The position numbers and the translations under genes are program-made. Shown here in pieces: positions 292 to 58,436 of a stretch of 64,000 bases of DNA; within the stretch, counting starts at the first letter, position 1, and each line of letters starts with the position of its first letter. The notes under the pieces are model-generated. The model searched no databases, was not told the DNA's origin, and saw nothing but the letters and a program-made list of their open reading frames with translations. Origin of the DNA: Mycolicibacterium parafortuitum (lineage in GTDB: Bacteria; Actinomycetota; Actinomycetes; Mycobacteriales; Mycobacteriaceae); NCBI RefSeq assembly GCF_010725485.1, contig NZ_AP022598.1:3782001-3846000 (forward strand). The letters are read 5' to 3'.

Positions 292-320
292 GTAATACAG
301 GAGTTGTTCAATTGGATAGT
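292..320 (-). promoter_or_regulatory. TTGAAC-type operator/promoter of the aldehyde dehydrogenase gene
   Basis: On the minus strand CAATTGAAC (306-314) is followed by AACTCCT and then TATTAC (292-297), a plausible -10. The left arm matches the half-site found at the other promoters of this island; the second arm (GTAT) is poor. It lies about 40-60 nt before the start codon at 253, in the 89-nt gap between that gene and the TetR gene. Confidence 0.5.
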
Positions 321-342
321 AAACGGAGTTCGGTGATCCGCC

Positions 343-957
343 CTAGCGCAAGCCGTTCACCGCGAACTTCTCCACGTACGCGCGGACCGTTTCGGGCTTG
401 GACATGTCGAAGGTCTGTGCTTCGTTGACGGTCGAGAACGAGTAGATGATGCGGGCCAGCCATTCGCTGGCTGCGGTGACGTCGATTCCGGCGCCGACCT
501 CCCCGCGCTGCTGGGCTTCGCGGACGTAGGGAACAAGGAAATTGGTGGAGCGCCGGACCGCCGAGTCGCCGTCGGCGATCATGTGGCGCATGAGTTCGGC
601 ATCGTCAGCCATGAGCCTGTTGCGAGTGCGGTGGTCGAGCAGAATGGTCGCGTGCGTCTCGGCCATCGCGCCCAATTTTGCAGCCAGCGTTGTCTTCTTG
701 GCCATCGCGGCCGCGACGAGTCGGTAGAACTTCTGCGCGCCGAACTCGATCGCGGCTTCGATCAACACGGTGCGGTCTTCGAAGTAGCGGTATACGGTGC
801 CTCGTGAGACATTCGCCATCCGGGCGACATCCTGAACACTGGTGCGCTGGATGCCCAACTGGGTGAAGCACTGATTGGCGGCTTCGAGGATCTGATCGCG
901 CCGGTCGACTTCATCCTGCTGGACGTCGACCTCAGCTGTCGCACGTGACGTTGCCAT
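343..957 (-). CDS. TetR/AcrR family transcriptional regulator
   Basis: This 204-aa protein has an N-terminal TetR helix-turn-helix at about residues 39-60 (TSVQDVARMANVSRGTVYRY), the family signature, followed by a helical ligand-binding domain of normal length. An AAGGAG ribosome site precedes the ATG at 957. It lies downstream of a 199-nt gene-poor stretch and upstream of the aldehyde dehydrogenase gene on the same strand. It is one of two TetR candidates in the island (the other is at 6152-6784) that could bind the repeated TTGAAC element. No convincing copy of that element is seen before its own start, only a lone GTTCACAAT at 1016, so autoregulation is not evident. The ligand is unknown; an acyl-CoA intermediate would fit comparable catabolic TetR proteins. 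Confidence 0.9.
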   Translation of the reverse strand: MATSRATAEVDVQQDEVDRRDQILEAANQCFTQLGIQRTSVQDVARMANVSRGTVYRYFEDRTVLIEAAIEFGAQKFYRLVAAAMAKKTTLAAKLGAMAETHATILLDHRTRNRLMADDAELMRHMIADGDSAVRRSTNFLVPYVREAQQRGEVGAGIDVTAASEWLARIIYSFSTVNEAQTFDMSKPETVRAYVEKFAVNGLR

Positions 958-1156
958 GACGCTCCTTGCCTGATGGGACGGGCCCGATGGGACGACTCTT
1001 CAGCCTCATCGCCAAGTTCACAATCGTACGCGACATCGCGACTCGGAGCGTATCGGCGTTCTGGGTGTGCGTCAGACTGTGAGGAAAGTCCCTCGAAACG
1101 TCATCAACAGTGAGACAGGTCATGCCTCTGTGTCTCAGGAGATTCGCCTCAACGCT

Positions 1157-2272: not shown

Positions 2273-2273
2273 G

Positions 2274-2939: not shown

Positions 2940-4579
2940 TTGAGGGCGCCCTCGGCCATCAGCTCCGCAAGGCGTCGTTTGTCGATCTTGTCGGTCGTGG
3001 TGTAGGGCAGCGCCTTGGGGTCGGTGAGGATGACCCACTTCTTCGGCACCTTGTAGGCTGCCAGACCGGCGCGGCATTGCGCGGTGAGGTGGGCGGCATC
3101 TGCGTGCCGGCCGTCATTGAGAACGACTGCGGCGCTGACGATCGCGCCGCGGTCGGGGTCGGGAACGCCGACCACGTAGGCAATGCGCACCTCGGGTAGC
3201 CGCCGCAGTGCTGCTTCGACCTCCATCGGGGCCACATTCGTGCCCGAGGTCTTGATCATTTCGTCGAGGCGCCCGGCGAAGTACAGATGACCGTCATCGT
3301 CGCGGTAGCCGGCGTCTTTGGTGTGCAGCCAACCGTCGCGGTCGACCAGCTCGTGCCAGTGTCGCCCGATCATGCCGCGCATCATGGCCTGACCCCGCAC
3401 ACAGATCTCGCCGGTGACACCGTTGGGGACTTCGGTGCCGGTGTCGTCGACGATCTTGTGTTCGTAACCGGGTGCCGAGACACCGAGGGAGCCGCGCTTG
3501 GACTCCGGTACCTGCTCGTGTGGTGGCCACCAGGTGTGGCTGCTGCATGTCTCGGTCATTCCGAGTTGGGCCACCCGCAGTGACGGGTCGGATGTCCGGC
3601 GGCCGGGAGGGAGCAGGACCTGCTGGTAGCCCTCTCGGAGGCTGGAAAGGTCGGTGCCGGCGAAGTCGGGATGATTGACCAGTGCCGGGCCGATGTGCGG
3701 GAAACCGGTGGTGTAGGTGGCTTTTTCGGCTTCCAGCAGGCGGCGTGTGTGGCCCGCGTCGAACTTGTGCTCGGTGAGCACGGTCGCTCCGTGCTGGAAC
3801 GGGCCGAGGAAGCCGAAGACCAGGCCGGCGACCCAGAAGAAGACCATCGGCACGTAGATGCGGTCGCCGGCCCCCCACTCGTGCTGTGCGGCGATGAACC
3901 GGGAGTGCGTGATTGCGGTCCCGTGGGTGTGCAGGATGCCCTTGGGATTCGACGTGCTGCCCGAGGTGTAGATCGCGAACAGGTCGTCGGTGGTGCGTAC
4001 GGTCTGTGCGCAGGCGGCCAGGAACTCCGGATCGACAGGATCGGGCCATTCCTGCGGCCAACGTGTGGTCACCACACCGAGCGGGAGCACGTTGCGCAGC
4101 TGGGGGAGCGCGCGCGACCGTAGCGGCATGTCCAGTTCGCCGGCCGCGGCGGCCAGCCGTGCCAGCATGTCGTTGCCCAGGATCGACTCGACGGACAACA
4201 CCGTGTGCACATCGGCGTCGCGGAGCACCCAGGCCAACTCGGCGGGTCCGAGGAAGGTGTTGAGCGGCACGGCTACCGCACCGATGCGCGTGACCGCGAG
4301 GAACGCGACGACGAAGTCGGGTCCGTTCGGCGCGAGAATGCCCACGCGCACGCCCTTGGTCACCCCCGCCGCGAGGAGGCGTGCCGCCATCGTCGCCGAG
4401 TCACAGTCAGCCTGTCCGTAGGTGATCCGCTCGCAAGCGCCGTCCGGCAGGCCGGCCACCACCAGGTCCGATTGCGCGTGTGAGGCCGTCACCGCGGCCA
4501 GCACGGCCGGCATGACGGGTTCGTAGGGCAGCGTCTCGTAGTGGAACGTGCGGGCGCTGGGAACCTGCGGCGAGGTCAT
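2936..4579 (-). CDS. Acyl-CoA synthetase (ANL superfamily, FadD-like)
   Basis: This 547-aa enzyme activates a carboxylic acid to its CoA thioester through an acyl-adenylate. It shows the ATP-binding loop YTSGSTSNPKGILHTHG, the adenylation motif LGMTE, the hinge motif with DGWLHTKDAGY and FAGRLDEMIKTSG, and a C-terminal lysine region (TDKIDKRRL). Length is normal for the family. The ATG at 4579 overlaps the upstream crotonase stop by 4 nt; an N-terminal extension in frame is rejected. It belongs to the unit crotonase - ligase - SnoaL - ACAD. Together with the ligase at 8788 it is probably an entry point of substrate or a side-chain acid into CoA metabolism. Substrate specificity is not readable from the sequence. 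Confidence 0.93.
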   Translation of the reverse strand: MTSPQVPSARTFHYETLPYEPVMPAVLAAVTASHAQSDLVVAGLPDGACERITYGQADCDSATMAARLLAAGVTKGVRVGILAPNGPDFVVAFLAVTRIGAVAVPLNTFLGPAELAWVLRDADVHTVLSVESILGNDMLARLAAAAGELDMPLRSRALPQLRNVLPLGVVTTRWPQEWPDPVDPEFLAACAQTVRTTDDLFAIYTSGSTSNPKGILHTHGTAITHSRFIAAQHEWGAGDRIYVPMVFFWVAGLVFGFLGPFQHGATVLTEHKFDAGHTRRLLEAEKATYTTGFPHIGPALVNHPDFAGTDLSSLREGYQQVLLPPGRRTSDPSLRVAQLGMTETCSSHTWWPPHEQVPESKRGSLGVSAPGYEHKIVDDTGTEVPNGVTGEICVRGQAMMRGMIGRHWHELVDRDGWLHTKDAGYRDDDGHLYFAGRLDEMIKTSGTNVAPMEVEAALRRLPEVRIAYVVGVPDPDRGAIVSAAVVLNDGRHADAAHLTAQCRAGLAAYKVPKKWVILTDPKALPYTTTDKIDKRRLAELMAEGALK

Positions 4580-5343: not shown

Positions 5344-5377
5344 GCTCGGCCCCTTCGCTCTCGTCGCAAGAGTAAAC

Positions 5378-5405
5378 AGATTAGCAAAAGATGTTCAATT
5401 GTCAG
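5378..5405 (-). promoter_or_regulatory. Promoter with TTGAAC-type operator before the crotonase at 4576-5343
   Basis: On the minus strand CTGACA (5400-5405) is separated by 16 nt from TAATCT (5378-5383). The spacer holds ATTGAACATCTTTTGC, nearly the same as the spacer upstream of the mce operon (58106-58121). The start codon is 35 nt downstream of the -10. This is one of the clearest copies of the element. Confidence 0.65.
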
Positions 5406-5415
5406 ACAGATCCGC

Positions 5416-6162
5416 TCAGGGCATCCACTGGCCACCGGAGACCGAGATCAACTGACCGGTGAGATGTTTGGCGGCGTCGGAGCACAGGAACGCCACGGTG
5501 TTGGCGACATCCTCGGGATCGCCGATCGCACCGGTGAGCGTGGAGTCCCGCATGGAGCCGAGTTCCGCCTCGGTCTTTCGCGACAACAGCCACGGCGTGG
5601 CGGTCGTCCCCACCACGACGGTGTTGACGCGTACTCCCAGAGGTCCCAGTTGCACCGCCATCAGGCGGCTCAGGCCTTCGACGCCGGCCTTCGCGGCGGC
5701 ATACGCGGGTGGCCCTGTGCGCACTCCGTGCGCGGACACCGAACTGATGTTGACGATGACGCCGTGGTGCTGCTCGACCATCTGGCGGGCGGCCACCTGC
5801 GCCATGACGAATGTGCCTGTGAGGTTGACGGCCAGGATGCGGTCCCAGTCCTCGTCGGTCTGATCGAGGAATGACGCAGGCAGGGTCATGCCTGCGTTGT
5901 TGACCAGAGCGCGTACCGGTCCGTAGGCGTCGCGTAACGCGCTCAGTCCACGCTCGACTGCCTCCCGGTCGGTGATCGACAGTTCCACGGGTATCACCAG
6001 ACCCGCTCGTGCGCAGTCTGTTTCCCGCGTCCTCGCGATGGCCTTGGGGTTCACGTCGATGACCGCGACGCGGTGGCCGGTCGTCACCATCTCACTCACG
6101 ATGGCCTCGCCGATACCGCGTGCGCCGCCGGTCACCACGGCCAGGGGAAGATCATCCGGCAC
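5416..6162 (-). CDS. Short-chain dehydrogenase/reductase (SDR)
   Basis: This 248-aa classical SDR has the cofactor motif VVTGGARGIGEA near the N-terminus, NNAGMT, an active-site serine in NISSVSAHG and the YxxxK pair in PAYAAAKAGVEG. It ends GQLISVSGGQWMP, a normal SDR C-terminus. It probably oxidises or reduces a hydroxyl/keto group on a CoA intermediate. The proposed GTG start at 6162 (VPDDLPLAVVTGG) follows an AGAGGAG ribosome site and overlaps the end of the TetR gene by 11 nt; a longer frame begins at 6267 but adds a basic non-SDR tail. It closes the MaoC - TetR - SDR unit. Confidence 0.9.
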   Translation of the reverse strand: MPDDLPLAVVTGGARGIGEAIVSEMVTTGHRVAVIDVNPKAIARTRETDCARAGLVIPVELSITDREAVERGLSALRDAYGPVRALVNNAGMTLPASFLDQTDEDWDRILAVNLTGTFVMAQVAARQMVEQHHGVIVNISSVSAHGVRTGPPAYAAAKAGVEGLSRLMAVQLGPLGVRVNTVVVGTTATPWLLSRKTEAELGSMRDSTLTGAIGDPEDVANTVAFLCSDAAKHLTGQLISVSGGQWMP

Positions 6163-6784
6163 GGCGGCTCCTCTCGGCCCTGGTCGATCGTTCGATCCTG
6201 GTGATGGACGGTCGCAGCAGATCGTTGGCCTGACGCATCGATGCGACCAGATCGGCCGTTCCGCCACCGGCCACCCAGGTGTCGATCGCTGCCCGGTTGG
6301 CGCCGTTGACGACGTTGACGGCCAGCCGTGGACGCAGATCGGTGGTCGGATCCGCGTGCAGCCACGCCGCGACCTCGGTGGTCATCTGATCGATCCAATC
6401 GTCGTTGATGCGCAACCTGGCCGCGCGCAGCGCGGGGTGGTTGCCGTACAGCCGCGCACGGGCGACGAAGATGTCCGGCTGCGCGCTGATGGCCTGCGCG
6501 ACAGACGCCGACGCCTCGGCGAGTGCACCCCACAGCGACCGGGCGCCCGATGCGCGGAAGCGGCGGGTCGCCTCGTCGAGCCGCTCGCGGTAGCCGTCGA
6601 AGAGGATGTCGTCCTTGGCCGCGAAGTGATGGAAGAACGTCCGCGGCGCGACGCCGGCACGCGCGGCGATGTGATCCACCGTGGTCGCGTCGTAGCCCTT
6701 GTCCTCGAAAAGGGCGATCGCGGCGGCGATCAGGGCTTGCCTGTTGCGCTGTCCCCGCATTCGGCGCTGGTCCATGGTGGTCAT
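6152..6784 (-). CDS. TetR/AcrR family transcriptional regulator
   Basis: This 210-aa regulator has its helix-turn-helix at about residues 33-54 (ATTVDHIAARAGVAPRTFFH) followed by a helical sensor domain. It sits inside an operon, 10 nt after the MaoC hydratase stop and overlapping the following SDR by 11 nt, so it is co-transcribed with catabolic genes. That position suits a local repressor sensing a pathway intermediate. It is the second candidate for the factor reading the TTGAAC element found across the island. The C-terminus (RIERSTRAERSRRAG) is very basic, probably because that part of the gene is constrained by the overlap. Confidence 0.9.
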   Translation of the reverse strand: MTTMDQRRMRGQRNRQALIAAAIALFEDKGYDATTVDHIAARAGVAPRTFFHHFAAKDDILFDGYRERLDEATRRFRASGARSLWGALAEASASVAQAISAQPDIFVARARLYGNHPALRAARLRINDDWIDQMTTEVAAWLHADPTTDLRPRLAVNVVNGANRAAIDTWVAGGGTADLVASMRQANDLLRPSITRIERSTRAERSRRAG

Positions 6785-6794
6785 CCCCGTCGTG

Positions 6795-7634: not shown

Positions 7635-7717
7635 ACACCTGCATTGAACGGATTGACGAAGTTTGTTACATCGTCCAATATAGTCGCAGTAACTGCAAAT
7701 AGTCCGTAGGAGCGCAC
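7635..7717. promoter_or_regulatory. Divergent promoter region, weak copy of the TTGAAC element
   Basis: This 83-nt region separates the MaoC (minus) and LLM (plus) starts. It contains GTTTGTTACATCGTCCAATA (7661-7680), where GTCCAAT imitates the usual GTTCNATTG arm, and a second GAAC at 7646-7649. Both are imperfect, so binding by the same factor is only possible. AATATAGT at 7677-7684 could serve as a -10 for the plus strand. Confidence 0.3.
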
Positions 7718-11848: not shown

Positions 11849-12249
11849 GCGGCGAGACGGAGTTGTACCGGCGCCGCGAGGCGCTGGTCCTGCGCCACGT
11901 GGCCGGTGAGAACGACCGCGATCTGGAAGCGATCATGGCCACCTTCGCCCATCCCCGGTACGAGATCGTGCCCAGCGGCGCGGTGTACGACGGCGACGAG
12001 GCGGTCCGGCAGATGATCGTTCAGCAGTGGGAGCAGCTGCCGAGAATGCACTACACCGCCGAGGGCGTGTTCCATGCCGCGGACGGTCTGGTCGTCGAGA
12101 CCCGCACCACCTGTCCGGGAACCGCGTTCGACATGCTCAGTATCAACGTGTTCGGGTTCGCCGGCGAGGCACTCGTCCTGGAGCGGTGCTACTTCGACCG
12201 CATGCTGTTCGCCGCGGAACTCGAGAAGGCGACAAGAATGCACGATTGA
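11845..12249 (+). CDS. SnoaL/NTF2-like protein
   Basis: This 134-aa protein (MSGETELYRRREALVLRHVA) is a single NTF2-fold domain with AHPRYEIVPSGAVYDGDEAV and INVFGFAGEALVLERCYFDR, matching the polyketide-cyclase-like SnoaL group. The ATG overlaps the DUF35 stop by 4 nt and it is the last gene of the operon from 7718. It may act on the aldol-cleavage product or as an isomerase/hydratase; no catalytic residues can be assigned with confidence. Confidence 0.75.
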   Translation: MSGETELYRRREALVLRHVAGENDRDLEAIMATFAHPRYEIVPSGAVYDGDEAVRQMIVQQWEQLPRMHYTAEGVFHAADGLVVETRTTCPGTAFDMLSINVFGFAGEALVLERCYFDRMLFAAELEKATRMHD

Positions 12250-12268
12250 ACACGGGACGTTCTATTGT
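12239..12268 (+). promoter_or_regulatory. Promoter/operator before the E1 gene (GAAC-N7-GTTC)
   Basis: TTGAAC (12246-12251) is followed by ACGGGAC and GTTC (12259-12262), a perfect GAAC-N7-GTTC, then TATTG. TCTATTGT could serve as -10. The left part overlaps the end of the SnoaL gene. The start codon lies 38 nt after the right arm, with a GAGGAG site between. Confidence 0.6.
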
Positions 12269-19987: not shown

Positions 19988-20016
19988 TAGTGCAATTAAA
20001 CATTTACTGTAATAGT
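19988..20016 (+). promoter_or_regulatory. Promoter/operator before the P450 at 20038 (variant TTAAAC arm)
   Basis: CAATTAAAC (19993-20001) is followed by ATTTACTG and TAATAG (20010-20015, possible -10), the same layout as the other elements with G changed to A in the arm. The right arm is not recognisable at N7, although a GTTC sits at 20017-20020. The P450 ATG is 22 nt downstream with GGAGG sites between. The region also serves the divergent crotonase. Confidence 0.45.
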
Positions 20017-20037
20017 GTTCCGGAGGATGGAGGTGTC

Positions 20038-26436: not shown

Positions 26437-26470
26437 CGTCGATCCTTTCGGGTGAACTGTTAGAGTGGGC

Positions 26471-26498
26471 TCGACAACTGAACAGTTTTTGATTAGTT
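26471..26498 (+). promoter_or_regulatory. TTGAAC-type promoter between amidohydrolase and small gene (CTGAAC variant)
   Basis: TCGACA (26471-26476), then a 16-nt spacer ACTGAACAGTTTTTGA, then TTAGTT (26493-26498). This is the same architecture as at 5378 and 58100. The arm here is CAACTGAAC (26475-26483) and the second arm is GATT. It points toward the small gene at 26532 and may also govern the divergent amidohydrolase. Confidence 0.55.
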
Positions 26499-26531
26499 GC
26501 ACTGTAGCGTGGCCGGCCGGGAAGGGCGAGG

Positions 26532-28937: not shown

Positions 28938-29017
28938 CGCGTGGATACCCGGTCGTCGATCCGCATCCGGCACCCCTTTCCGCCACCGCAGTCCGGCGGT
29001 CTGTCATCATACTGAAT

Positions 29018-29045
29018 GATAGAACGAACTCTGTTCAACTGTTAC
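29018..29045. promoter_or_regulatory. Divergent promoter/operator, perfect GAAC-N7-GTTC
   Basis: GAAC (29022-29025), GAACTCT, GTTC (29033-29036), then AACTG. On the minus strand this reads CAGTTGAAC with GTAACA (-35-like), 16 nt, TCTATC (-10-like) toward the ACAD pair. On the plus strand the SDR start is 26 nt downstream of the right arm, with a GGGAGGAA ribosome site. Confidence 0.6.
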
Positions 29046-33219: not shown

Positions 33220-33239
33220 CAAATGAACGTATAGTGATC
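33220..33239 (-). promoter_or_regulatory. TTGAAC-type element before P450 at 32001 (ATGAAC variant)
   Basis: CAAATGAAC (33220-33228), GTATAGT, GATC (33236-33239): one arm ATGAAC and the opposite arm GATC at the same N7 spacing. It overlaps a second inverted repeat, ATCACT (33206-33211) / AGTGAT (33233-33238). It lies 26 nt upstream of the P450 start. Confidence 0.45.
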
Positions 33240-33245
33240 ATCTGA

Positions 33246-36162: not shown

Positions 36163-36182
36163 CGGGCAACCATATCGCAAAT

Positions 36183-36209
36183 GGACAACTGATGTTCTAT
36201 TGTTCAAGT
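36183..36209. promoter_or_regulatory. Divergent operator between two CoA-transferase genes
   Basis: GGAC (36183-36186), AACTGAT, GTTC (36194-36197), then TATTG, and a second GTTCAAG (36202-36208). On the minus strand it reads CTTGAACAATAGAAC. The sequence contains two overlapping right arms, possibly a double site, 20-65 nt from both start codons. Confidence 0.5.
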
Positions 36210-40925: not shown

Positions 40926-40954
40926 ACGACAATTGAACAATATTCGTTCGATTG
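40926..40954. promoter_or_regulatory. Near-perfect TTGAAC palindrome, divergent promoter
   Basis: CAATTGAAC (40930-40938), AATATTC, GTTCGATTG (40946-40954): 25 bp with one mismatch between the 9-bp arms. It is the best copy of the island's element. ACGACA (40926-40931), 16 nt, TCGATT could be the plus-strand promoter of the P450 at 40988; the symmetric sequence faces the fused CoA-transferase at 40890. Confidence 0.7.
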
Positions 40955-40987
40955 TGTCCATGTTGGGTGTGCTCTAAGGTCTATCGC

Positions 40988-44924: not shown

Positions 44925-44949
44925 CACTTGATCGATTAGTGTTCTGATG
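44925..44949. promoter_or_regulatory. Divergent TTGAAC-type element (GATC/GTTC arms)
   Basis: CACTTGATC (44925-44933), GATTAGT, GTTC (44941-44944), TGATG. The right arm is exact, the left has GATC for GAAC, at the usual N7. It lies 27 nt from the SRPBCC start and 37 nt from the crotonase start. Confidence 0.5.
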
Positions 44950-45883: not shown

Positions 45884-45908
45884 CAGATAGACATATCCTG
45901 TTTATCTG
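45884..45908. promoter_or_regulatory. 25-bp palindromic operator of a second type
   Basis: CAGATAGAC (45884-45892) and GTTTATCTG (45900-45908) are inverted with a 7-nt centre and one mismatch. The sequence differs from the TTGAAC element, so another TetR-like factor may act here, although GTTCTGTATAG starts at 45908. It lies between the crotonase stop and the SDR start at 45951. Confidence 0.5.
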
Positions 45909-45950
45909 TTCTGTATAGTGAAATGCGACTCGGAGCGCGAAGGAGTGACG

Positions 45951-49936: not shown

Positions 49937-50500
49937 ATGACAGATAGTGAGAAGGTGTTCTATCGTTTACCGATGCGCCCCGTTCGGGTCTTCCTGCGGA
50001 GCGGCGCCTGGCTGCTGGCGGGGATCGGCGTGTGCGTGACGGGTCAGTGGAACATTCCGGTCTCTCACGGCGTCGAGCCTGAACTGGCGATCAACGGCAC
50101 GTACACCGCTGTGTCGATGGGTAATTGGTCCAAGAGGAATGAGGTCTATTTCGACGAGCGCACGGTTCGCAGCATCTGGACGATTGTGTCCTCGTGCTCG
50201 GATCCGCAGACGTGCTCCGGCCAGGTGCACAGCGACCAGGGGTGGTCGGCTGAGCTGACGATGCAATCGAACATGTGGAGCGTGCGCCGTGACGTTCCCG
50301 ATTGGGTCCCGTGCCCTGACGGCACGACCTATCCCGGGCGGCAACTGTTTCGCTTCTCGCCCACGGCCCAGGGCGGCCGCAGAGTCGTCGGTTCACCGGT
50401 GCTCGCGGGGGAGGACGTGACGGCAGGACCTGCGGGTGCGTGCGGCGTAGGCCAACCCCTCGTCATCCGGATGCCGTTCCGGCTCGACAAGATCAGCTGA
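49937..50500 (+). CDS. Secreted protein of unknown function next to mce operon
   Basis: This 187-aa protein has a signal-peptide-like N-terminus (MRPVRVFLRSGAWLLAGIGV from the internal Met at 49973) and a mature part with NGTYTAVSMGNWSKRNEVYF and paired cysteines (SSCSDPQTCSG, VPCPDG, AGACG). Exported proteins with this NGTYT...W pattern are, as I recall, widespread in mycobacteria but without known function. The start is uncertain: 49937 gives the full frame, while 49973 gives a better signal peptide. A lone GTTCTATCG arm lies at 49957-49965. It is convergent with mceF (7-nt gap). Confidence 0.72.
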   Translation: MTDSEKVFYRLPMRPVRVFLRSGAWLLAGIGVCVTGQWNIPVSHGVEPELAINGTYTAVSMGNWSKRNEVYFDERTVRSIWTIVSSCSDPQTCSGQVHSDQGWSAELTMQSNMWSVRRDVPDWVPCPDGTTYPGRQLFRFSPTAQGGRRVVGSPVLAGEDVTAGPAGACGVGQPLVIRMPFRLDKIS

Positions 50501-50507: not shown

Positions 50508-51953
50508 TTAATTCGGCATCAGGTCCTGCCAGCTTTTCGGCGGGTCGTCGGTGACCAGATCGGACTGCTGGTGAGTCCGGCCATCATGGGTGACGTAGCG
50601 TCCGGTCGCCGGGTCGTACTGGGCGAAGCCCACCGGGCCCGGCGGAAGTGGGGTGCCCTCGACCGGCCCGTAGAGTCGCTCGCCGGGCGGGATGCGGTCG
50701 TCGGGCGGGATCCCCTGGGCAATGGCGTTGGGGTCGATCGGATTCGGTCCCAGAGCGTGCTGGCGCAGGGCCAGCGGCTGATACGGCTGGTCACTTCGAC
50801 AGATTTCGACGGTCGGGGCTCGCTTGCCCGGGTAGTCGGCGCACGGGGTGTTACGGGCGCCACGGACGGCGATCGGCGAATCCTGCGGAAGCTTGCAGAA
50901 CAGGTTGTCGGGAGTGTCGATGTCGGTGACGTCGGCCGGGGAACGCCACTCCGATGCGGGCAGAAAGCCGACAGTGCAGGCGGGCGGGTCGCCACTGGTG
51001 GCGGTGAAGTCCCCGAGCGGCCAACCGGTCGGATTGTTCCAGGGAAGCGCAAAGCCCTGCAGTGCGGCGATATACGGGGGGAAGAGCACCAGCAGCTGTT
51101 CGACCCCTGGCCGGTATGTCAATGCGATCTGGCCGACGGTGGTCAGATTGGCCAGGAGTAGCGGAAGGGTGGGCCTGACATCCCGAAGCAGACGCGCCGC
51201 CTCATCCGCGGCTGGGGGCCCGACGTGCAGAATGCTCCGCACAGCGGTGTCGTTCTCGTCGATCTGGCGGGTCACTCCAGCCAGGCTTCGTGCCCATTGT
51301 CGCAGCGAATCGGTGGTCTGCGCCTGGGCGTCGAGCAGAGGAACGCTGTCGTCGGTGAGGGTGCTCACCGTATCGGCGTTGGTTTTGAGGGCGTCGCCGA
51401 GTGTGGACGACGAATCGATGAGAGATCCGAGGTCGAAGTCCGCTCCATCGAGGGCCTGGGAGGTCTCGTCGAGCAGGTCGGCGATTCGATCCTCGGGGAT
51501 GCTGCCCAGCAGCGCGCTGATCTGATCGAGCATCGGTCCGACCTTCTGGGGGACGGTCACATCGCCGGCGCGGATGACAGACCCCTCGCCGAGGTATGGG
51601 CCGGTGTCGGCGCGGGGACGAAGATCGACGTACTGTTCACCCACCGCTGACACACTTCGTACCTCGGCGCTCAGGTCGGCGGGGATCTTGGGGGAGGTCT
51701 GGAGACTGAGCTTGGCGCGAGGACCGCTCGGCGTCAGCTCCAGTTCGGTGACCTTGCCTACCTGCACGCCGCGCACTGTCACGTTGCTGAAGCGGTACAG
51801 TCCGCCGCCTTCGGGAAGTTCCATCGTGACGGTGTATCGTCCGATGCCCAACAGGGTCGGTGCCTGGACGTAGACGACGACCATCGCGGTCACGCCCACC
51901 ACCGAGGCGATGGCGAAGAGCACCAGCTGGATGCGGACCAGACGGCTGAGCAT
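50508..51953 (-). CDS. mceF: Mce family protein MceF
   Basis: This 481-aa Mce protein has one N-terminal membrane segment (LVRIQLVLFAIASVVGVTAM), then the MCE/MlaD domain (RYTVTMELPEGGGLYRFSNV, VRGVQVGKVTELEL), a long helical middle part and a Pro-rich C-terminus. It is the last of six mce genes and would form part of the periplasmic lipid-uptake tunnel. The ATG overlaps the mceE stop by 1 nt. Confidence 0.95.
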   Translation of the reverse strand: MLSRLVRIQLVLFAIASVVGVTAMVVVYVQAPTLLGIGRYTVTMELPEGGGLYRFSNVTVRGVQVGKVTELELTPSGPRAKLSLQTSPKIPADLSAEVRSVSAVGEQYVDLRPRADTGPYLGEGSVIRAGDVTVPQKVGPMLDQISALLGSIPEDRIADLLDETSQALDGADFDLGSLIDSSSTLGDALKTNADTVSTLTDDSVPLLDAQAQTTDSLRQWARSLAGVTRQIDENDTAVRSILHVGPPAADEAARLLRDVRPTLPLLLANLTTVGQIALTYRPGVEQLLVLFPPYIAALQGFALPWNNPTGWPLGDFTATSGDPPACTVGFLPASEWRSPADVTDIDTPDNLFCKLPQDSPIAVRGARNTPCADYPGKRAPTVEICRSDQPYQPLALRQHALGPNPIDPNAIAQGIPPDDRIPPGERLYGPVEGTPLPPGPVGFAQYDPATGRYVTHDGRTHQQSDLVTDDPPKSWQDLMPN

Positions 51954-53203
51954 CAGCGCGCGCCCGGGTAGGGGCCGGCGAAGATCTGATCATGTTGCGG
52001 TGGTTGACCGCTCGGCTGTCCGCTGGGCGGTGGTGCGACGGGTAGTACGGGCTCGGCGAGTGTCGGTGCCGGCGGAGCACCCGCCTGCGGCGGCTCGGGG
52101 GAGACGATCGTGCTGCCGAGGGGATCGTAGGTGTAGTTGGCGAACCATGGGTCGCCCGGAGCGGGCACCAATCGGGCGTGCGGTTCACCGAATCGGGTAC
52201 CGAGCGCCAGGGTGCGTCTGATCCGGGGATACGTCAGGTCCAGTGTGACGAACAGGTTCATGAAGTCTCCCTTCATCCCACGGTCGATGACGTTCTGGGT
52301 GAAGGGGAACGTCGTCAAATAGGCCAGCACGGTGTCGAGGTCGGTGCCGAGATCGGCGACTGCGCGCAAGGTCGGTTCCAGGTTGCGCAGGTTCCGGATG
52401 AGGTCCTCCTGCGTATCGTCGATCAGCCCGGTGGCGGTGTCGCTGAAAGTCCGTAGACGGTCCAATGCCGTTGTCAGTTGTGGCCGTTGGCGCACCAAGA
52501 CATCCAGGGCCGCGGGAATCTTGAGGATCGCCGCGTCAATGGCGCCCGACCCGTCGGCCAGAGTCCTGCTGAGGTCGGCGAGTTCCTCGAGAGTGACGAC
52601 CACGTCGTGTCGCTGGTCTGCCAGCACGCCCGCGATCTCGTCGAGCCGTGTGAGCAGATCACGGACCTGTGGCTCCCGCCCGGACAGCGCGGCGTTCGAT
52701 TCACCGATGATGTCGCTGATCTGGCCGAGACCACCGCCGTTGACGATGGTGGACAGCGACGACAAGGTCCGCTCGGTGGACGGGAAGGTCGAGGACCTGT
52801 TCAGCGGCAGTGTCGCACCGGGTGAGAGACGACCGCGAGGCTGTTCGCCCGGCGGAGGGTTCAGTGCCAGATGCATCGATCCGAGCAGGCTGCTCTGACC
52901 GACGGTGGCCACCGCGTTCTCGGCGACCGCCGTGTCGGGTTCGATGGAGACCTGGACAGTGGCATGCCAGTTGTCGACGGTGAGCCCCTCGACAGTGCCG
53001 ACCGTCACGTCAGAGATCAACACGGGCGAATTTGGTTCCAAAGTACCGACATTGGCGATCTCGACGAAGTACGTCGCAGTGTCTGCGCCTCGCCCGATCG
53101 TACCGGGCAGAGGCAGCGAGTTGATCCCCTGGAAACCGCAGCCCGCGGTGACCAAGACCACCATGGCGCAGAATGCGGCGCGGCTCGAAGCGAGGGATCT
53201 CAC
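51953..53203 (-). CDS. mceE: Mce family lipoprotein MceE
   Basis: This 416-aa protein has a lipoprotein signal (AAFCAMVVLVTAGCGFQGIN; lipobox VTAGC, modified Cys at about residue 22) and an MCE domain (NVGTLEPNSPVLISDVTVGT), followed by helices. MceE is the usual lipoprotein of mce operons, anchored to the plasma membrane. The GTG start at 53203 overlaps the mceD stop by 4 nt. Its C-terminus is Pro/Ala-rich (PEPPQAGAPPAPTLAEPVLP). Confidence 0.95.
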   Translation of the reverse strand: MRSLASSRAAFCAMVVLVTAGCGFQGINSLPLPGTIGRGADTATYFVEIANVGTLEPNSPVLISDVTVGTVEGLTVDNWHATVQVSIEPDTAVAENAVATVGQSSLLGSMHLALNPPPGEQPRGRLSPGATLPLNRSSTFPSTERTLSSLSTIVNGGGLGQISDIIGESNAALSGREPQVRDLLTRLDEIAGVLADQRHDVVVTLEELADLSRTLADGSGAIDAAILKIPAALDVLVRQRPQLTTALDRLRTFSDTATGLIDDTQEDLIRNLRNLEPTLRAVADLGTDLDTVLAYLTTFPFTQNVIDRGMKGDFMNLFVTLDLTYPRIRRTLALGTRFGEPHARLVPAPGDPWFANYTYDPLGSTIVSPEPPQAGAPPAPTLAEPVLPVAPPPSGQPSGQPPQHDQIFAGPYPGAR

Positions 53204-54558
53204 GGGTGCGGCACCCCCGACGACGTGGGAGACTGCTGCGGCGGTGCGGGCAAGATGAGGTTGTCGACGGTCGCGGGGGCGACCGGCGGTGGACTGTAGC
53301 CCGGGGGTGGTGGGACATCACCGTTGCTTCCGGTGTATGCGGACACGGCAGGGGGTATGTCAGGCGGCCCAGGCGGCGTCCCTGCGGCGCCAGGAGCCAG
53401 ACGCGGATCCGAGTACACCAGGTTCTGCGGCTGGGCGGCCGCACTGAGCAGAGGATTCAGCGGGAACGGAAGATAGTTGAAGTTCAGCAATCGCAGTGCA
53501 GGTCCGAGGTATTCGGCACACAGGCGCGCGGTTTCGGGCGCCGTCGCGTTCTCCACGGCGCCTATTCCCGAACAGAGAAACTGGACCGGGTTCGAGAAGT
53601 TCTGGAAGACAAAGGAACCGACGAATGTTCCGGTGTCTGGGTTGTACATGTTGTAGGTGTTGGCCAGCGACGTCGGCGCGGCGTGCAGGATGTTCTCGAC
53701 CGATGTCCGCTGCTCGACGAGGACCTGGGTGAGGTCGGCCAACCGTTCGACCTGCTCGGTGGTCTGGGCTCGGCTTCCTGCGATGAAGCGCCGAGCGTCA
53801 TCGATGGCTCCGGACAACGTTGTCAGAGCGGAGTCGAGGTCGCTTCTGCTGTCGTTGACGACGGTGGTCAGGGCCGCGAAGCGGTCCTGGAACTGCACAA
53901 TCTGGATGTTGCTGTCGCGCAACGCCGAGACGAAACGCTGCAGATTGGTGACGATGTCGACCAAGTCGCCGCTTCCCTCGGCGAAGATGCGACCTGCCGC
54001 GGACAATTGGGCAAGCGTTTCGCGAAGTTTGGCGCCGTTGCCGTCCATCGCGTTTGCGGCGCTGTCGATGAACCGCGCGACCGAGGTCTGTTGGCCGGGT
54101 GAGGCCGGGCCCAGGTCTTCGGCGATTCGCGCCAGTTGTTTTTTGACCTCGTCCCATTCGACGGGAACCGCCGTGCGATCCTGCGGAATGGCGCCGCCGT
54201 CGGGCATGGTGGGCCCTTCGGCATCGTAGGCGGGCGCCAACTGAACATACCGCGCGGCAACAAGATTCGGTGCGACGATGATCGCCTGGACATCGGCGGG
54301 AATCGGCACTTCCCGATCGATGTGCATCGTGACCTTGGACTGGGTTCCGGTCGACTCGATCGAGGCGATCGTCCCGACCTCGACGCCGAGAACCCGAACC
54401 TGATCGCCCGGGTAGATGGCCGTGGTGGAGGAGAAGTACGCGTAGATCGTCGACGGCGCGAAGAACGTCTGGCGTGCCATGAACGCCGAGGACACGATGA
54501 TCAGCACCACGAAAGTGGCTGCGATGCCGGCCCTCGCGTGTCTACGGGTTACCGTCAT
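53200..54558 (-). CDS. mceD: Mce family protein MceD
   Basis: This 452-aa protein (MTVTRRHARAGIAATFVVLI) has a single N-terminal membrane segment, MCE domain (YPGDQVRVLGVEVGTIASIE, APNLVAARYVQLAP), coiled helices and a long Pro-rich tail (GTPPGPPDIPPAVSAYTGSN). The ATG at 54558 follows AGGAG and overlaps mceC by 17 nt. It is one subunit of the presumed heterohexameric Mce shuttle. Confidence 0.95.
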   Translation of the reverse strand: MTVTRRHARAGIAATFVVLIIVSSAFMARQTFFAPSTIYAYFSSTTAIYPGDQVRVLGVEVGTIASIESTGTQSKVTMHIDREVPIPADVQAIIVAPNLVAARYVQLAPAYDAEGPTMPDGGAIPQDRTAVPVEWDEVKKQLARIAEDLGPASPGQQTSVARFIDSAANAMDGNGAKLRETLAQLSAAGRIFAEGSGDLVDIVTNLQRFVSALRDSNIQIVQFQDRFAALTTVVNDSRSDLDSALTTLSGAIDDARRFIAGSRAQTTEQVERLADLTQVLVEQRTSVENILHAAPTSLANTYNMYNPDTGTFVGSFVFQNFSNPVQFLCSGIGAVENATAPETARLCAEYLGPALRLLNFNYLPFPLNPLLSAAAQPQNLVYSDPRLAPGAAGTPPGPPDIPPAVSAYTGSNGDVPPPPGYSPPPVAPATVDNLILPAPPQQSPTSSGVPHP

Positions 54559-55645
54559 CGGGGAGATCTCCTGGTTGCGGGATGCCGTTGACTGGGAAGG
54601 GGAGCTCTGCGCGTGGGCCGGCGTTGTCCGGCGGCTGGCCGGCGTTGACGCCTCGTCGGAACCCGAAGGCGTAGTCGAGGAAGGGCTGCAGGAACTGCGA
54701 CGGGATGAGATTGGCGACGAACGCGTTGTAGTAGCCCCCGGAGGCGATCGTCTCACCTTGGGTGCGCTGGAACTTCTCGAGGCCGGGAAGCGCCGCTGCT
54801 ATGTTGTCGCGATTCTTCTGCAGCATCGCATTGACCGAATTCAGCTTGGCCAGCATCGGGGCGAGTTCGGCTTCGTTGTCGTCGACGAGCCCGGAGATCT
54901 GTTGGGATACCGCAGAGGTGTTGGCCAGAAGATTGGCGATGGCGATCCGTCTGTCGACGAGCACTGCCATCAGATCGTTGGCGTTGAGGATCAAGGTGTT
55001 GACCTGTGCACTGCGGTCTGAGATCACCTGTGTGACGTCGGCCGAGTGCGCGAGCAGCTGGCTGATGTCGTTGTTGCGCTCGTTGAGCATGCGTGACACG
55101 CGCGTCAGGCCCTCGAAGGTGGGTCCCAGTTGCGGGGCGATCTGGTCGAGCGTTTCGGCCAGGACGTCCAGGGATTGGTTGACGTCGGCGGTGTCGGTTC
55201 CGGCGATCTGTGTCGACAGGTCGCCCACGGCGTCGTTGAGCGAATACGGAGATGAGGTGCGTGTCAACGGGATCGCTTCCGATGAATCCAAGACGCCCGA
55301 CCCGGCTGACTCCACGGTCAGCGTCCGCTCGCCGAGTAACGAGCCTGTGCGGATATGGGCGGTGGAGTCGCGTCCGAAGGTCACGGTGGCGTCGGCGGTG
55401 AACCCGACTTTGACCTGATTTCCGTCCAGCGCGACGCTCGTGACGTGGCCGACTTTGATGCCGGAGACAACCACGTCGTTGCCGGCCTGCAGGCCGCCGG
55501 CCTCGGCGAACACGGCCTGATAGCGGATGTCGGTGGCCAGCGACAGCAGCCGTTCCGGTTGGAGGCCGACCAGGATGACGAGTACGGCGACGACGACGCC
55601 GATGAATCCGGCCCGGATGAGGTGCTTGCCTTTGTATTTCAGCAT
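54542..55645 (-). CDS. mceC: Mce family protein MceC
   Basis: This 367-aa protein (MLKYKGKHLIRAGFIGVVVA) has an N-terminal membrane segment, MCE domain (EAGGLQAGNDVVVSGIKVGH, TGSLLGERTLTVESAG), helical region and short acidic end. It starts at 55645, overlapping the mceB stop by 1 nt. The frame upstream is shadow. Its length is on the short side for MceC. Confidence 0.95.
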   Translation of the reverse strand: MLKYKGKHLIRAGFIGVVVAVLVILVGLQPERLLSLATDIRYQAVFAEAGGLQAGNDVVVSGIKVGHVTSVALDGNQVKVGFTADATVTFGRDSTAHIRTGSLLGERTLTVESAGSGVLDSSEAIPLTRTSSPYSLNDAVGDLSTQIAGTDTADVNQSLDVLAETLDQIAPQLGPTFEGLTRVSRMLNERNNDISQLLAHSADVTQVISDRSAQVNTLILNANDLMAVLVDRRIAIANLLANTSAVSQQISGLVDDNEAELAPMLAKLNSVNAMLQKNRDNIAAALPGLEKFQRTQGETIASGGYYNAFVANLIPSQFLQPFLDYAFGFRRGVNAGQPPDNAGPRAELPFPVNGIPQPGDLPDDGNP

Positions 55646-56664
55646 CAGGGGTCCGCACACCTTCCGGCGCCCTGGTTCTTGACCCACGGGAACACCGCGG
55701 TCTGGCCTTCGAGGTCGCTCACGCGCAGGGTGATGCCGCACAGGTAGTAGTTGATCCAGCTGCCGTAGGCGCCGAGTCGGACCAGCTTCTTGAAATTGCC
55801 CGGCGCCTTCTGCAGGGCGATATCGATCTTGTCTTTGTCGGCGTCGAGTGGCACCGAGAGACGGTTCAGTTGGTCGATGGTGGCGGCCAGTGGTGGTCTG
55901 CCGTTGTCCAGGAGATCGGTAAGTGACGCCGTGCCTTTTTCCAGCGACTCGATCGATGCTCCGATCGGGTCTCGGTCGGCGGCGAGGCCGGTGACCAGAG
56001 AGTCGAGGCGCTCGATCGTGTCGGAGAACTGACGGCTGTCTTTTGCCAGGACGGCGGTCAAGTCGCGAAGGTTGCCGATGACCTCCTGGATCACGTCGCT
56101 GTGATCCGCCAGTGTCGCGGTGAACGTCGAGGTCTTCGACAGCAGCGATTCCATCACGCCGCCTTGTCCTTGAAGTGCTTGCAGTAGAGACGAGGTGAGC
56201 ACGTTGATGTCCTCGGCATCGAGGCCCTGGGTCAGGGGTCGCAGTCCACCGAGAAGCAGGTCGAGATCGAGTGCGGGTGCGGTGCGCTCGGCTGGGATTT
56301 GCCCGCCGTCAGGCAGGGTCCGGGTCGATCCCGGGGAATCGACCAGTTCGAGGTAGCGATCGCCGACGAGATTGAGGTACCGCACTTCCGCACGAGTGCC
56401 GACTGTGAGCACCACCTTGCGGTCTGCGTCGAAGGACACCACGGCGGATTTGTCCGGCCGCAACCGAACGTCGTCGACCGTGCCGACGCGAACCCCGGCA
56501 ATTCGGACCGAATCTCCTGGCTTGAGGCGGGCGACGTCGTGGAAGACGGCAGAGTAGCTGTTGGTGGCACCGCCCCGGTAATCGGCGAACATCATGACCA
56601 GGAAGGCCGTCAGCACGCTCATCACTGCGGCGAAGGCCAGAAATTTGATACTCGATCGGCGCAT
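55645..56664 (-). CDS. mceB: Mce family protein MceB
   Basis: This 339-aa protein (MRRSSIKFLAFAAVMSVLTA) has an N-terminal membrane segment, MCE domain (VARLKPGDSVRIAGVRVGTV, VRYLNLVGDRYLELVDSP), helices and a C-terminus with Cys residues (YYLCGITLRVSDLEG, AGRCADP). The ATG at 56664 comes 2 nt after the mceA stop. Confidence 0.95.
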   Translation of the reverse strand: MRRSSIKFLAFAAVMSVLTAFLVMMFADYRGGATNSYSAVFHDVARLKPGDSVRIAGVRVGTVDDVRLRPDKSAVVSFDADRKVVLTVGTRAEVRYLNLVGDRYLELVDSPGSTRTLPDGGQIPAERTAPALDLDLLLGGLRPLTQGLDAEDINVLTSSLLQALQGQGGVMESLLSKTSTFTATLADHSDVIQEVIGNLRDLTAVLAKDSRQFSDTIERLDSLVTGLAADRDPIGASIESLEKGTASLTDLLDNGRPPLAATIDQLNRLSVPLDADKDKIDIALQKAPGNFKKLVRLGAYGSWINYYLCGITLRVSDLEGQTAVFPWVKNQGAGRCADP

Positions 56665-56666
56665 AC

Positions 56667-57857
56667 CTAGCCCGGCATTCCGATCTGTGAGGAGTTGCGG
56701 GGAGGACCGTCGATGGGGCCGAAGAGGAGTTGTTTGAGCCCGTCGGAGTTCAAGACGATGCCTTCGTTGCCATACCGCCATCTGTTCCCGCCGATGTCGG
56801 TGACCAGGAAGGGCGAGATCTCCTGCGGTTGCAGCACCGGCATTCCGACCTTCTCGCAGTTTGAGCCGCCACTCGCCGCCACCTTGGGCAGGTCGCCCGG
56901 GTACCGGTAACGCTCGATGCCCCAGGTGAATCCGATCGACACCATGATTCCCGGTTCGGGGAGGGGAAGTCCCTGGGTGAATGGGACCAGCCCCTTGAGG
57001 GTGCAGTCGACGTTCTGCCGATACTGGTAGAGCAGGTCCGTCGTCGGCGCCAGAATTCTCAGCAGGTCTGTCAGAGGCTGGCGATTCTCTGCCAGCACGG
57101 CTGTGCCGATTTCGCCGAACCCGATGGTGCTCAACAGAAGCGCGTCGAGATTCTGCTGCTCGTCGACGATCGTCTCACTGATCCGGGTCGAATGTTGAAG
57201 CACCTGGATGAAGTCAGGCGCGGCATCTGCGTATGCAGTCACCACGGTGGGTTGGGCAGCGAGATCGCGAGAGAAATTGGGAATGCTTTTGCCGAAGCGT
57301 GTGAGGAACGCGTCGAGGTCGGCCAGTACCTGGTTGATCTTGTGGCCCCGGCCGTCCAGCGCTCGTGAGAGCTGACCCAAAGTCGTGTTGAGCTCGACGG
57401 GGTCGACGGTGTCGAGCAGATTGGTCAGTCGTTCGAAAACTGTGTTGATCTCGACGGTGACATGGTCGCCGGTGAGTACCTGGCCGGCGAAGAGAGCAGT
57501 CGATGCCGGATGTGGCGGCGGCACCAGATCGACGAACTTCGCGCCGAACACGGTCGACGACGTGATGTCGACGTTCACGTTTTCCGGGATCATCGCCATC
57601 TGTTCAGGGTTCAACTCAAGGTGCAGCGCCGAACGCCCGTCCGGGAGGGGTTCGACGGAGCCGACCCGGCCCACCGTGATGCCCTGCATCTTGACCTTGG
57701 CGTCGGGGTTCATGACAAGGCCTGCGCGGGGGGAGAGCACGGTGACCGTGGCAGTCCGCGTGAGATCTCCGTGAAACAGCACCACCGAGAGCCCGGCCAG
57801 AAGGGCCACCACGGTGATCAAGGACAGCCCGGCCAGCGGTCGCACGAGGTTGTTCAA
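56667..57857 (-). CDS. mceA: Mce family protein MceA
   Basis: This 396-aa protein has one N-terminal membrane segment (LAGLSLITVVALLAGLSVVL), MCE domain (RAGLVMNPDAKVKMQGITVG, TVFGAKFVDLVPPP) and the long helical region of MceA proteins. The TTG start at 57857 follows an AGGGAG site. In typical mycobacterial loci yrbEA and yrbEB encode the permease just upstream; here only a 43-codon ORF precedes it, so a permease must be supplied elsewhere. Confidence 0.94.
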   Translation of the reverse strand: MNNLVRPLAGLSLITVVALLAGLSVVLFHGDLTRTATVTVLSPRAGLVMNPDAKVKMQGITVGRVGSVEPLPDGRSALHLELNPEQMAMIPENVNVDITSSTVFGAKFVDLVPPPHPASTALFAGQVLTGDHVTVEINTVFERLTNLLDTVDPVELNTTLGQLSRALDGRGHKINQVLADLDAFLTRFGKSIPNFSRDLAAQPTVVTAYADAAPDFIQVLQHSTRISETIVDEQQNLDALLLSTIGFGEIGTAVLAENRQPLTDLLRILAPTTDLLYQYRQNVDCTLKGLVPFTQGLPLPEPGIMVSIGFTWGIERYRYPGDLPKVAASGGSNCEKVGMPVLQPQEISPFLVTDIGGNRWRYGNEGIVLNSDGLKQLLFGPIDGPPRNSSQIGMPG

Positions 57858-57866
57858 CTCGGCTCC

Positions 57867-57998
57867 CTAGCCGGACGCTTCGACGTTGCGGTGAGAGCCG
57901 TGGATCGGCAGAGACACGTCCGCCATCCTGCGTGCTGCCAGATTTACGCTCACGTCAAGCGCCCTTCGAAGCGGCCGGAAGGTGCTTATCGATGACAT
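57867..57998 (-). CDS. Possible 43-aa small protein upstream of mceA
   Basis: The minus-strand frame reads MSSISTFRPLRRALDVSVNL then AARRMADVSLPIHGSHRNVE. It starts at an ATG (57998) with a strong GGGAGGGG ribosome site 5 nt upstream and stops 9 nt before the mceA start. An in-frame ATG at 58040 would add 14 residues. It lies downstream of the mce promoter at 58100-58127, so it would be translated as the first gene of the mce transcript. Basic and partly amphipathic; no family recognised. It could be a leader peptide, a small Mce-associated protein or a remnant. Confidence 0.45.
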   Translation of the reverse strand: MSSISTFRPLRRALDVSVNLAARRMADVSLPIHGSHRNVEASG

Positions 57999-58436
57999 CA
58001 CGACCCCTCCCGTACCGGCTGCCACGTTGGCGCGCTTCATGATTGGGCGAGGACCGGGACGGCCTTCGGTCTCGGTCGCCTGCGGCACGCGTAGTGAACA
58101 ATATAGCAAAAAGTGTTCTACTGACAATACGGTGGGGCGCGGTAAGGATGAACGCTCGGACCGGTGATCTGCAGGCCCGGATTGGCTGCCAAGTGTCCTT
58201 TTGCGTGGATTTTCACCTGCTCTCCGGTATCGGAACGCTGCGCATTCAGCGATGCCGGGGCGGTCGACGTCGGCCGAGATCCTCGGTCGTTCGATGTAGG
58301 GAGTCTTCGTCAAAGGCCACGTGGTCATCGGACGACGGCCGCCCGGGCCGTTCTCGGGCCGAAAGTCAGAATCCCCGAACGTGTGCTCGCGCGTGATGCC
58401 CGTCGCCGATCGATCCGAATGTGACAGCCTGAAGGC
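57999..58436. other. Gene-poor stretch between mce operon and alpha/beta hydrolase
   Basis: Apart from the mce promoter at 58091-58127 I see no gene that I can support in these 438 bases. Several open frames cross it in antisense but have shadow composition. The promoter of the hydrolase gene at 58437 must lie in its right part; no clear hexamers or TTGAAC element were found there, and no good ribosome site precedes the hydrolase ATG. Confidence 0.6.
58091..58127 (-). promoter_or_regulatory. mceA: mce operon promoter with TTGAAC-type operator (AGAAC variant)
   Basis: Minus strand: TTGTCA (58122-58127), 16-nt spacer GTAGAACACTTTTTGC, TATATT (58100-58105), a near-consensus promoter. The spacer matches that of the crotonase promoter at 5378 (ATTGAACATCTTTTGC) at 11 of 16 positions. 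A second GAAC at 58096-58099 faces GTTC at 58115-58118. This ties mce expression to the catabolic island. Confidence 0.6.

Follow-up and report, generated by a model that had tools for sequence, protein, structure and literature searches.

The stretch of the Mycolicibacterium parafortuitum genome studied here (64,000 nucleotides, called the window below) carries a catabolic island next to an mce operon, and a preliminary description had noticed that a TTGAAC / GAAC-N7-GTTC element recurs in eleven places, almost all of them short intergenic or divergent regions. This raises the question of whether the element is a genuine regulatory site and, if it is, which protein recognizes it and whether a single regulator governs import and degradation together.

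The repeated element is real. Every one of the eleven coordinates bears a copy, and all eleven align as 25-mers which fit the palindrome CAATTGAAC-N7-GTTCAATTG (starts at 290, 5377, 12243, 19993, 26475, 29017, 33220, 36178, 40930, 44925 and 58099). The copy at 40930-40954, already singled out as the best, has the top score (34.3 bits) in the matrix built from these eleven sites. Leave-one-out scores of the eleven sites range from 20.5 to 32.1 bits, and 16 positions of the window reach at least 10 bits, where an order-3 Markov model of the window predicts 2.8. The next-ranked independent positions are 45884 (20.9 bits), 49941 (15.3 bits) and 7649 (13.0 bits). Together with the eleven listed sites they make up a 14-site matrix, in which their scores of 25.5, 18.7 and 17.9 bits are raised by construction and the best remaining independent score in the window is 8.1 bits. 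An extra copy lies 5.5 kb to the left of the window (L002:14457, 26.3 bits). Matrix and consensus are tested here on their own source sites, a circularity which the leave-one-out scores and the relatives lessen while some of it stays.

The short motif behaves differently: with at most one mismatch, GAAC-N7-GTTC is found 35 times in the window against 25.5 +/- 5.4 expected, a count reached by 7 of 100 shuffles, which is no clear enrichment, and its exact form occurs 167 times genome-wide. We dropped it as evidence for this reason. What carries the signal is the longer version that includes the outer CA...TG; the element first described stands as a 25-bp palindrome and not in its short version. 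The half-sites follow each other with a period of 8 bp. The top exact dyad of the window's non-coding DNA, AACA-N13-TGTT (4 found, 0.025 expected, p 1.6e-8, 5376 tests), consists of one outer and one inner half-site of this palindrome.

Predicted operators stand before about 14 promoter regions. They are given below in window coordinates with their scores in the 14-site matrix, a site being counted as kept in a relative when it scores at least 14 bits there; the mce operon follows.

290..314, predicted operator, 28.0 bits, before an aldehyde dehydrogenase gene running left out of the window; kept in 3/3 relatives counted
5377..5401, predicted operator, 30.2 bits, before enoyl-CoA hydratase 4576-5343 (-) and its downstream genes; kept in 17/17 genomes
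7649..7673, predicted operator, 17.9 bits, between the MaoC-TetR2-SDR genes (-) and a luciferase-like gene (+); kept in 14/15 genomes at MaoC and 15/15 at the luciferase-like gene
12243..12267, predicted operator, 24.2 bits, before a 2-oxoacid dehydrogenase E1-like gene (+), whose real start is to the right of the listed ORF start; kept in 7/9 genomes
19993..20017, predicted operator, 28.1 bits, between enoyl-CoA hydratase 19122-19961 (-) and P450 19984-21234 (+); kept in 6/6 genomes at both genes
26475..26499, predicted operator, 28.9 bits, before DitZ-like amidohydrolase 25132-26502 (-); kept in 6/6 genomes
29017..29041, predicted operator, 24.6 bits, before SDR 29062-29862 (+); kept in 11/11 genomes
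33220..33244, predicted operator, 28.1 bits, before P450 32001-33194 (-) (P450_b); kept in 3/5 genomes
36178..36202, predicted operator, 30.7 bits, between two CoA-transferase III genes; kept in 5/5 genomes at CoAT_c and 1/5 at CoAT_b, whose listed start is doubtful
40930..40954, predicted operator, the best, 32.9 bits, between CoA-transferase 38806-40890 (-) and P450 40952-42202 (+); kept in 5/5 genomes at both genes
44925..44949, predicted operator, 21.7 bits, between a polyketide-cyclase-like gene (-) and an enoyl-CoA hydratase gene (+); kept in 5/5 genomes at both genes
45884..45908, predicted operator absent from the preliminary description, 25.5 bits, before SDR 45918-46856 (+); kept in 5/5 genomes
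49941..49965, predicted operator absent from the preliminary description, 18.7 bits, before a gene of unknown function, 49937-50500 (+), whose real start is probably further in; kept in 3/3 genomes
58099..58123, predicted operator, 29.6 bits, upstream of mceA by 242 bp
50508..57857 (-), mce operon of six MlaD genes that lacks a yrbE pair

Rieske oxygenase, OB-fold and thiolase-like genes lie downstream of the 45884..45908 site.

A scan of the whole genome and of related genomes, which had been suggested as a check, confines the element sharply. With at most one mismatch to the site-derived consensus there are 10 places in the 6.04-Mb genome, all of them within 64 kb (3776457-3840123), and 31 stretches of control DNA (620 kb) contain two positions of at least 14 bits, both in the stretch L140. 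A match at the start of a transposase gene, L002:7697 (15.8 bits), has a letter-for-letter copy in L140 and probably reflects chance resemblance within a repeated element. Orthologous gene starts were compared in up to 19 relatives: the site is kept at 124 of 134, against 10 of 233 for genes without a site in the window. A divergent site enters this comparison for both its genes, and close orthologues are among the 166 sites collected from related loci, the left flank and the window itself, so that the counts are not independent.

The site before mceA is found in the window and in three relatives (G085, G120 and G135), in differing gene neighbourhoods. The genome has 66 MlaD and 20 MlaE matches; none of the 20 MlaE matches is near the window, and yrbE has no match in the window. 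The operon is therefore not a full Mce transporter operon (yrbEA-yrbEB and six mce genes), the permease pair being missing. Two genes for TetR-type proteins had been put forward as encoding the regulator:

343..957 (-), TetR1, TetR_N domain, likeliest regulator
6152..6784 (-), TetR2, C-terminal domain like that of MftR; follows the MaoC gene and is predicted to belong to the regulon

The sequence comparisons point to TetR1 as the most likely binder of the palindrome. Its TetR_N helix-turn-helix domain scores 50 bits (cut-off 24) and shows almost no variation in sets of 20 and 47 sequences. TetR1 is present in 28 of 198 genomes of the genus at 79-92% identity, with a second copy in G039 at 70%, and has no match in the plasmid collection at 1e-40; its structure model (mean pLDDT 54) was not used. 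A motif match is found in 25 of the 28 genomes with TetR1 against 24 of the 170 without it (Fisher p = 4e-15), and in the three which have TetR1 and no motif by pattern search (G085, G119 and G173) the matrix finds sites. Of 19 genomes, 11 have a site of at least 14 bits in the 300 bp upstream of TetR1 and 8 do not; in the window itself the TetR1 promoter has a degenerate match only (7.8 bits at 1108). Where TetR1 and an SDR gene are divergent within 700 bp, a site stands between them in 12 of 12 loci (9 distinct places).

These phyletic data cannot by themselves separate TetR1 from TetR2, because TetR2 co-occurs nearly as well (27 of 198 genomes, the same ones as TetR1). TetR2 also has a TetR_N match and sits behind the site kept at MaoC, and one could suppose that it binds, alone or as a partner of TetR1, with TetR1 controlling something else. 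We consider this unlikely. Three locus stretches, L064, L081 and L082, have TetR1 or a paralogue together with sites and contain no TetR2, and these stretches, with the site between divergent TetR1 and SDR genes, are the reason why we favour TetR1. TetR2 is present elsewhere in the L064 strain and in the genome G039; it is found nowhere in G089, the genome of L081, which is only 92% complete, so that its absence there could be a gap. TetR2 is moreover less conserved (63-78% identity, mostly 79-92% for TetR1) and has a site directly upstream in 1 of 16 genomes, against the 11 of 19 for TetR1, though TetR2 is operon-internal. Its score against the MftR equivalog TIGR03968 is 83.2 bits, under the cut-off of 224.9. 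A third protein, TetR3 (61514-62137), was rejected as the regulator: it occurs in 148 of 198 genomes, and of the five relatives which have it at 83% identity or more, four (G027, G184, G139 and G037) are without TetR1 and one (G178) has it.

An alternative already raised in the preliminary description is that the element serves a special sigma factor as promoter, or an activator as binding site, and is no repressor operator. Several copies had been seen with a fixed 16-nt spacer between -35-like and -10-like hexamers, and a modest downstream preference does exist: among 90 gene-oriented sites, TANNNT stands 16 nt after the TTGAAC-like hexamer in 14 cases downstream and in 3 at the mirror position, and TNNANT in 21 against 16. 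The motif centre of one-sided sites is at a median of 42 bp from the mapped gene start, and the downstream outer bases (T24 0.91, G25 0.97) are somewhat better conserved than the upstream ones (A2 0.72, C1 0.87). However, the consensus of the 166 sites is nearly symmetric about its centre, with inner halves equally conserved in oriented sites (C9 0.97 and G17 0.99, A10 0.83 and T16 0.82, A8 0.82 and T18 0.83), as expected of a dimer and not of a directional promoter, and the phyletic link of the motif is to a TetR; we therefore hold the sigma-factor or activator reading to be quite improbable, though an activator with a symmetric site would fit the symmetry as well. Still less weight, next to none, can be given to the reading that AT-rich intergenic stretches of a GC-rich genome resemble each other by chance. 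It would fit the short form, which is not significantly enriched, and the pattern matches in genomes without TetR1, but not the near emptiness of the control stretches, the excess of the dyad or the retention of the site at orthologous gene starts; the relatives have already refuted it.

We thus think it very probable that a TetR-family repressor, and most probably TetR1, uses the palindrome as its operator. From the sequence we infer the following scheme. TetR1 would bind the palindrome as one or more dimers. The palindrome would overlie the core promoter, its left half-site (TTGAAC/TAGAAC) at -35 and its right half-site just before -10, and TetR1 would thereby bar RNA polymerase from the promoters behind 15 sites (in the window and just left of it). 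Release of TetR1 would be brought about by an intermediate of the pathway, perhaps an acyl-CoA derived from a polycyclic terpenoid-like substrate, and would switch on the catabolic enzymes and the mce import operon at the same time. The proposal of one TetR regulon joining uptake and degradation agrees with the conservation of the sites, with their linkage to mce and with the co-occurrence of TetR1; most likely, one TetR-type repressor jointly switches the breakdown genes and the Mce import operon in certain environmental mycobacteria. Through such shared control an Mce operon without an assigned substrate would be connected with one particular catabolic pathway. The operator stands before an mce operon lacking yrbE both in the window and in three relatives, which makes the sharing of Mce permeases a testable question.

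As to the substrate, both amidohydrolases of the window have DitZ (8uyr) as their closest solved structure (1e-77 and 2.3e-73), and the island also encodes P450s, a Rieske oxygenase, SDRs and thiolase-like proteins; the substrate is perhaps a polycyclic terpenoid-like acid, which is a guess. A larger picture, which we offer tentatively and do not on balance expect to hold in full, is that an undescribed TetR repressor, with an operator of four half-sites at an 8-bp period taking more than one dimer over core promoters, controls an undescribed mycobacterial pathway for such acids together with a permease-less Mce importer, which would then have to borrow YrbE proteins from another mce operon. 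If this is true, an Mce system acquires, through a single switch, a substrate that is neither a sterol nor a fatty acid. Regulator, operator and gene set are now named and directly testable.

A literature search covering few subscription journals or preprints found no description of this motif or regulator in the text available. One of the nearest known systems is that of KstR, whose targets include mce4 and cholesterol uptake. Against the KstR family NF033703, TetR1 reaches 23.1 bits, under the cut-off of 280; the KstR operator TnnAACnnGTTnnA has one match in the window, which falls within the gene 7718-8791 (at 8492), and the KstR2 operator, AnCAAGnnCTTGnT, has none there. The preliminary description, from the N7 spacing, had taken the element for a regulon separate from that of KstR. 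KstR is a repressor of the TetR family whose palindromes are numerous and scattered in front of genes of lipid catabolism, and its operator partly overlaps the -10 region in kstR's own promoter (PMC1995591). TetR-type control, multiple palindromes before catabolic genes and the half-site TAGAAC/GTTCTA are alike in the two systems, whereas here the spacing is N7 instead of N2, the site is longer and the sites lie in one island. Mce3R, as described in PMC11667970, similarly exerts TetR-type control on an mce operon and other genes through 25-bp sites; it is however a fused double TetR with asymmetric, non-palindromic sites, while TetR1 is a single TetR of 204 aa with a palindromic site. The Mce3R chain 9b7y has 406 aa, and its first half is matched by residues 12-147 of TetR1. 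BkaR, another mycobacterial TetR, likewise has a palindromic operator, present at its own promoter and at others, with a different sequence (core GTTA(N)T(N4)A(N)TAAC; PMC3920632). That core has no match in the window.

Among solved structures, the best sequence match of TetR1 is TtgR. TtgR binds its operator with two dimers. The palindrome studied here is long, as are the operators of TtgR and of QacR, the latter binding 28 bp as a tetramer (PMC4482099); the half-site period of 8 bp sets the present element apart from operators of this type. As for resin-acid catabolism, dit clusters occur in Pseudomonas and Paraburkholderia according to the available parts of PMC10710418 and PMC13063091; the latter, in that part, does not name DitZ, and we found in the available texts no support for DitZ as the defining gene of Dit diterpenoid catabolism. 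Like the dit clusters, the island combines DitZ-related amidohydrolases with the oxygenase, SDR and thiolase-like genes named above, the solved DitZ being the only Dit protein compared; unlike them, it is rich in CoA-transferases and adjoins an mce operon.

The eleven copies of a TTGAAC / GAAC-N7-GTTC element named in the preliminary description are all present, and they can be aligned as one 25-bp palindrome, a GAAC-N7-GTTC core with an outer CA...TG (best copy at 40930-40954). The short form GAAC-N7-GTTC is not enriched on its own: much of the motif signal lies in the outer CA...TG and in the flanking AT-rich positions. Genome-wide, the short form occurs 167 times against 12 for the reversed pattern, an excess possibly due to codon usage. 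A matrix built from the eleven sites added three window sites, at 45884, 49941 and 7649; with the resulting 14-site matrix, all 14 reach at least 17.9 bits while the best other independent window position scores 8.1. A further strong site precedes a SnoaL-like gene in the left flank, at a distance of 5.5 kb from the window (L002:14457, L002 being that flank). The half CGTCAATCCG of site 7649-7673 and of its orthologues is unusually strongly conserved among relatives, perhaps owing to an overlapping TTGACG-like -35 hexamer.

Allowing up to three mismatches, the consensus has 47 matches in the whole genome versus 35 for the reversed-pattern control. All 10 matches with at most one mismatch fall within 3776457-3840123, as do 2 of the 5 with two mismatches and 1 of the 32 with three; as the consensus was derived from the same sites, these counts show where the motif is located and carry no independent p value. 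The site threshold of 14 bits is reached twice across 31 control stretches (620 kb), each time in L140 (15.8 and 17.5 bits); the flank stretches L001, L003 and L004 contain no such position. An identical 25-mer (15.8 bits) is found at L140:4600 and at L002:7697, where it lies at the start of a transposase gene: it is probably a chance match within a repeated element.

Three TetR genes of the window have to be considered.

343-957, minus strand: TetR1, candidate regulator of the preliminary description
6152-6784, minus strand: TetR2, its other candidate
61514-62137: TetR3

TetR1 is found in 28 of the 198 genomes of the genus and TetR2 in 27, the same ones except G089. The motif pattern is matched in 25 of the 28 TetR1 genomes versus 24 of the 170 others (Fisher p 4e-15); in these 170 it matches at 28 places, versus 11 for the reversed pattern in all 198. 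Two observations favour TetR1 over TetR2: L082 (in G039), L064 and L081 (in G089) contain TetR1 or a paralogue together with sites, TetR2 being absent from the stretches examined, and wherever TetR1 is divergent from an SDR gene (12 loci, 9 distinct) a site lies between the two. TetR1's closest named relative among those retrieved is from Mycobacterium aurum (93%), which points to a non-tuberculous mycobacterium. TetR3 was rejected as the regulator: it is widespread (148/198), and of the five proteins most similar to it four come from genomes that lack TetR1. Another catabolic cluster, smaller than the island, is L082 (G039:C1:507491-527490), which has several operators and a separate TetR1 paralogue (69%); TetR2 was not found in its 20 kb. 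In some strains two TetR1 copies lie near each other, often adjoining an operator (L064, L065, L068, L071).

The island is mostly colinear in the two relatives mapped. The site sequence drifts between relatives, yet orthologous promoters retain a site: from 300 bp upstream to 60 bp inside the gene start, genes with a site-bearing orthologue in the window keep a site of at least 14 bits at 124 of 134 starts (up to 19 genomes), and such a site is found at 10 of 233 starts orthologous to window genes without one, four of these ten belonging to the SDR gene 22656-23651. Both counts score a divergent site for each of its two genes, and leave out matches below 50% identity, partial genes, genes close to locus ends, and TetR1, whose own upstream 300 bp hold a site in 11 of 19 genomes (degenerate in the window). 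Retention is weakest for one of the two CoA-transferase III genes flanking site 36178 (1/5, doubtful start), the P450 at 32001-33194, minus strand (3/5), and mceA (2/3); in G085, the third genome of the mceA count, the site is about 430 bp upstream.

The proposed link through the motif between the catabolic island and the mce operon (50508-57857, minus strand) is supported outside the window also. Close mceA orthologues exist only in G085 (85%) and G120 (70%), the remaining matches listed being at about 50-58%. A site precedes mceA in the window and in both genomes, with 29.4 bits in G085, about 293 kb away from TetR1, and 19.2 bits in G120; in G135, a 24.7-bit site lies upstream of a more distant mce operon (56%) adjoining the island. 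Since mceA has different neighbours in each of these four places, the operator travels with the operon through rearrangement. The operon has six genes and is devoid of the usual yrbE permease pair: a yrbE query gave no match in the stretches around it in the window, G085, G120 and G135, and the nearest MlaE gene is more than 500 kb off. The genome (6.04 Mb) has 66 MlaD matches, that is 11 sets of six, versus 20 MlaE genes, or 10 pairs. Gene 49937-50500, adjoining mceF, has no Pfam match; in G085, G120 and G135 as in the window, it has an operator to itself.

In 90 gene-oriented sites the inner halves are equally conserved, the outer downstream bases are somewhat better kept than the upstream ones, and a weaker -10-like element lies 16 nt past the TTGAAC-like hexamer. 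The operator therefore appears to overlie the core promoter, a position suited to a repressor that would block RNA polymerase. When the matrix is shifted by 8 bp on 166 sites (orthologues included), the means are 1.7 and 2.6 bits, with 44 and 57 sites above 5 bits; other shifts from 1 to 14 give means of -9.3 to -21.4 and at most 10 such sites. Each arm can thus be read as a pair of TGAACA-like half-sites with a spacing of 8 bp. The centres of the two inner half-sites are separated by 11 bp or about 37 Angstrom, which falls within the 32-38 Angstrom that PMC11667970 quotes for DNA-bound TetR proteins; the outer half-sites may take extra dimers.

The window (64 kb, 66.5% GC) encodes, according to Pfam, CoA-transferase III, acyl-CoA dehydrogenases, enoyl-CoA hydratases and thiolase-like proteins with ChsH2-like OB partners, as well as P450s, SDRs, a Rieske oxygenase, two amidohydrolases, an E1 2-oxoacid dehydrogenase-like protein and the mce operon. 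The closest solved structure for both amidohydrolases is DitZ, and PMC6891630 lists Mycobacterium strains that can grow on DHA (dehydroabietic acid) and IPA, which we read as isopimaric acid. For the substrate, a polycyclic terpenoid-like acid is therefore no more than a reasonable guess. Against it counts the P450 at 40952-42202, which is closest to the reconstructed ancestor of CYP125, a sterol oxidase, so that the substrate may be sterol-like instead.

KstR is the nearest working analogue of this system, which differs from it in motif spacing and in the protein family of TetR1; the operators of Mce3R and BkaR are also unlike the window motif. The system falls within a known kind of control, its operator and its mce operon both being unusual.
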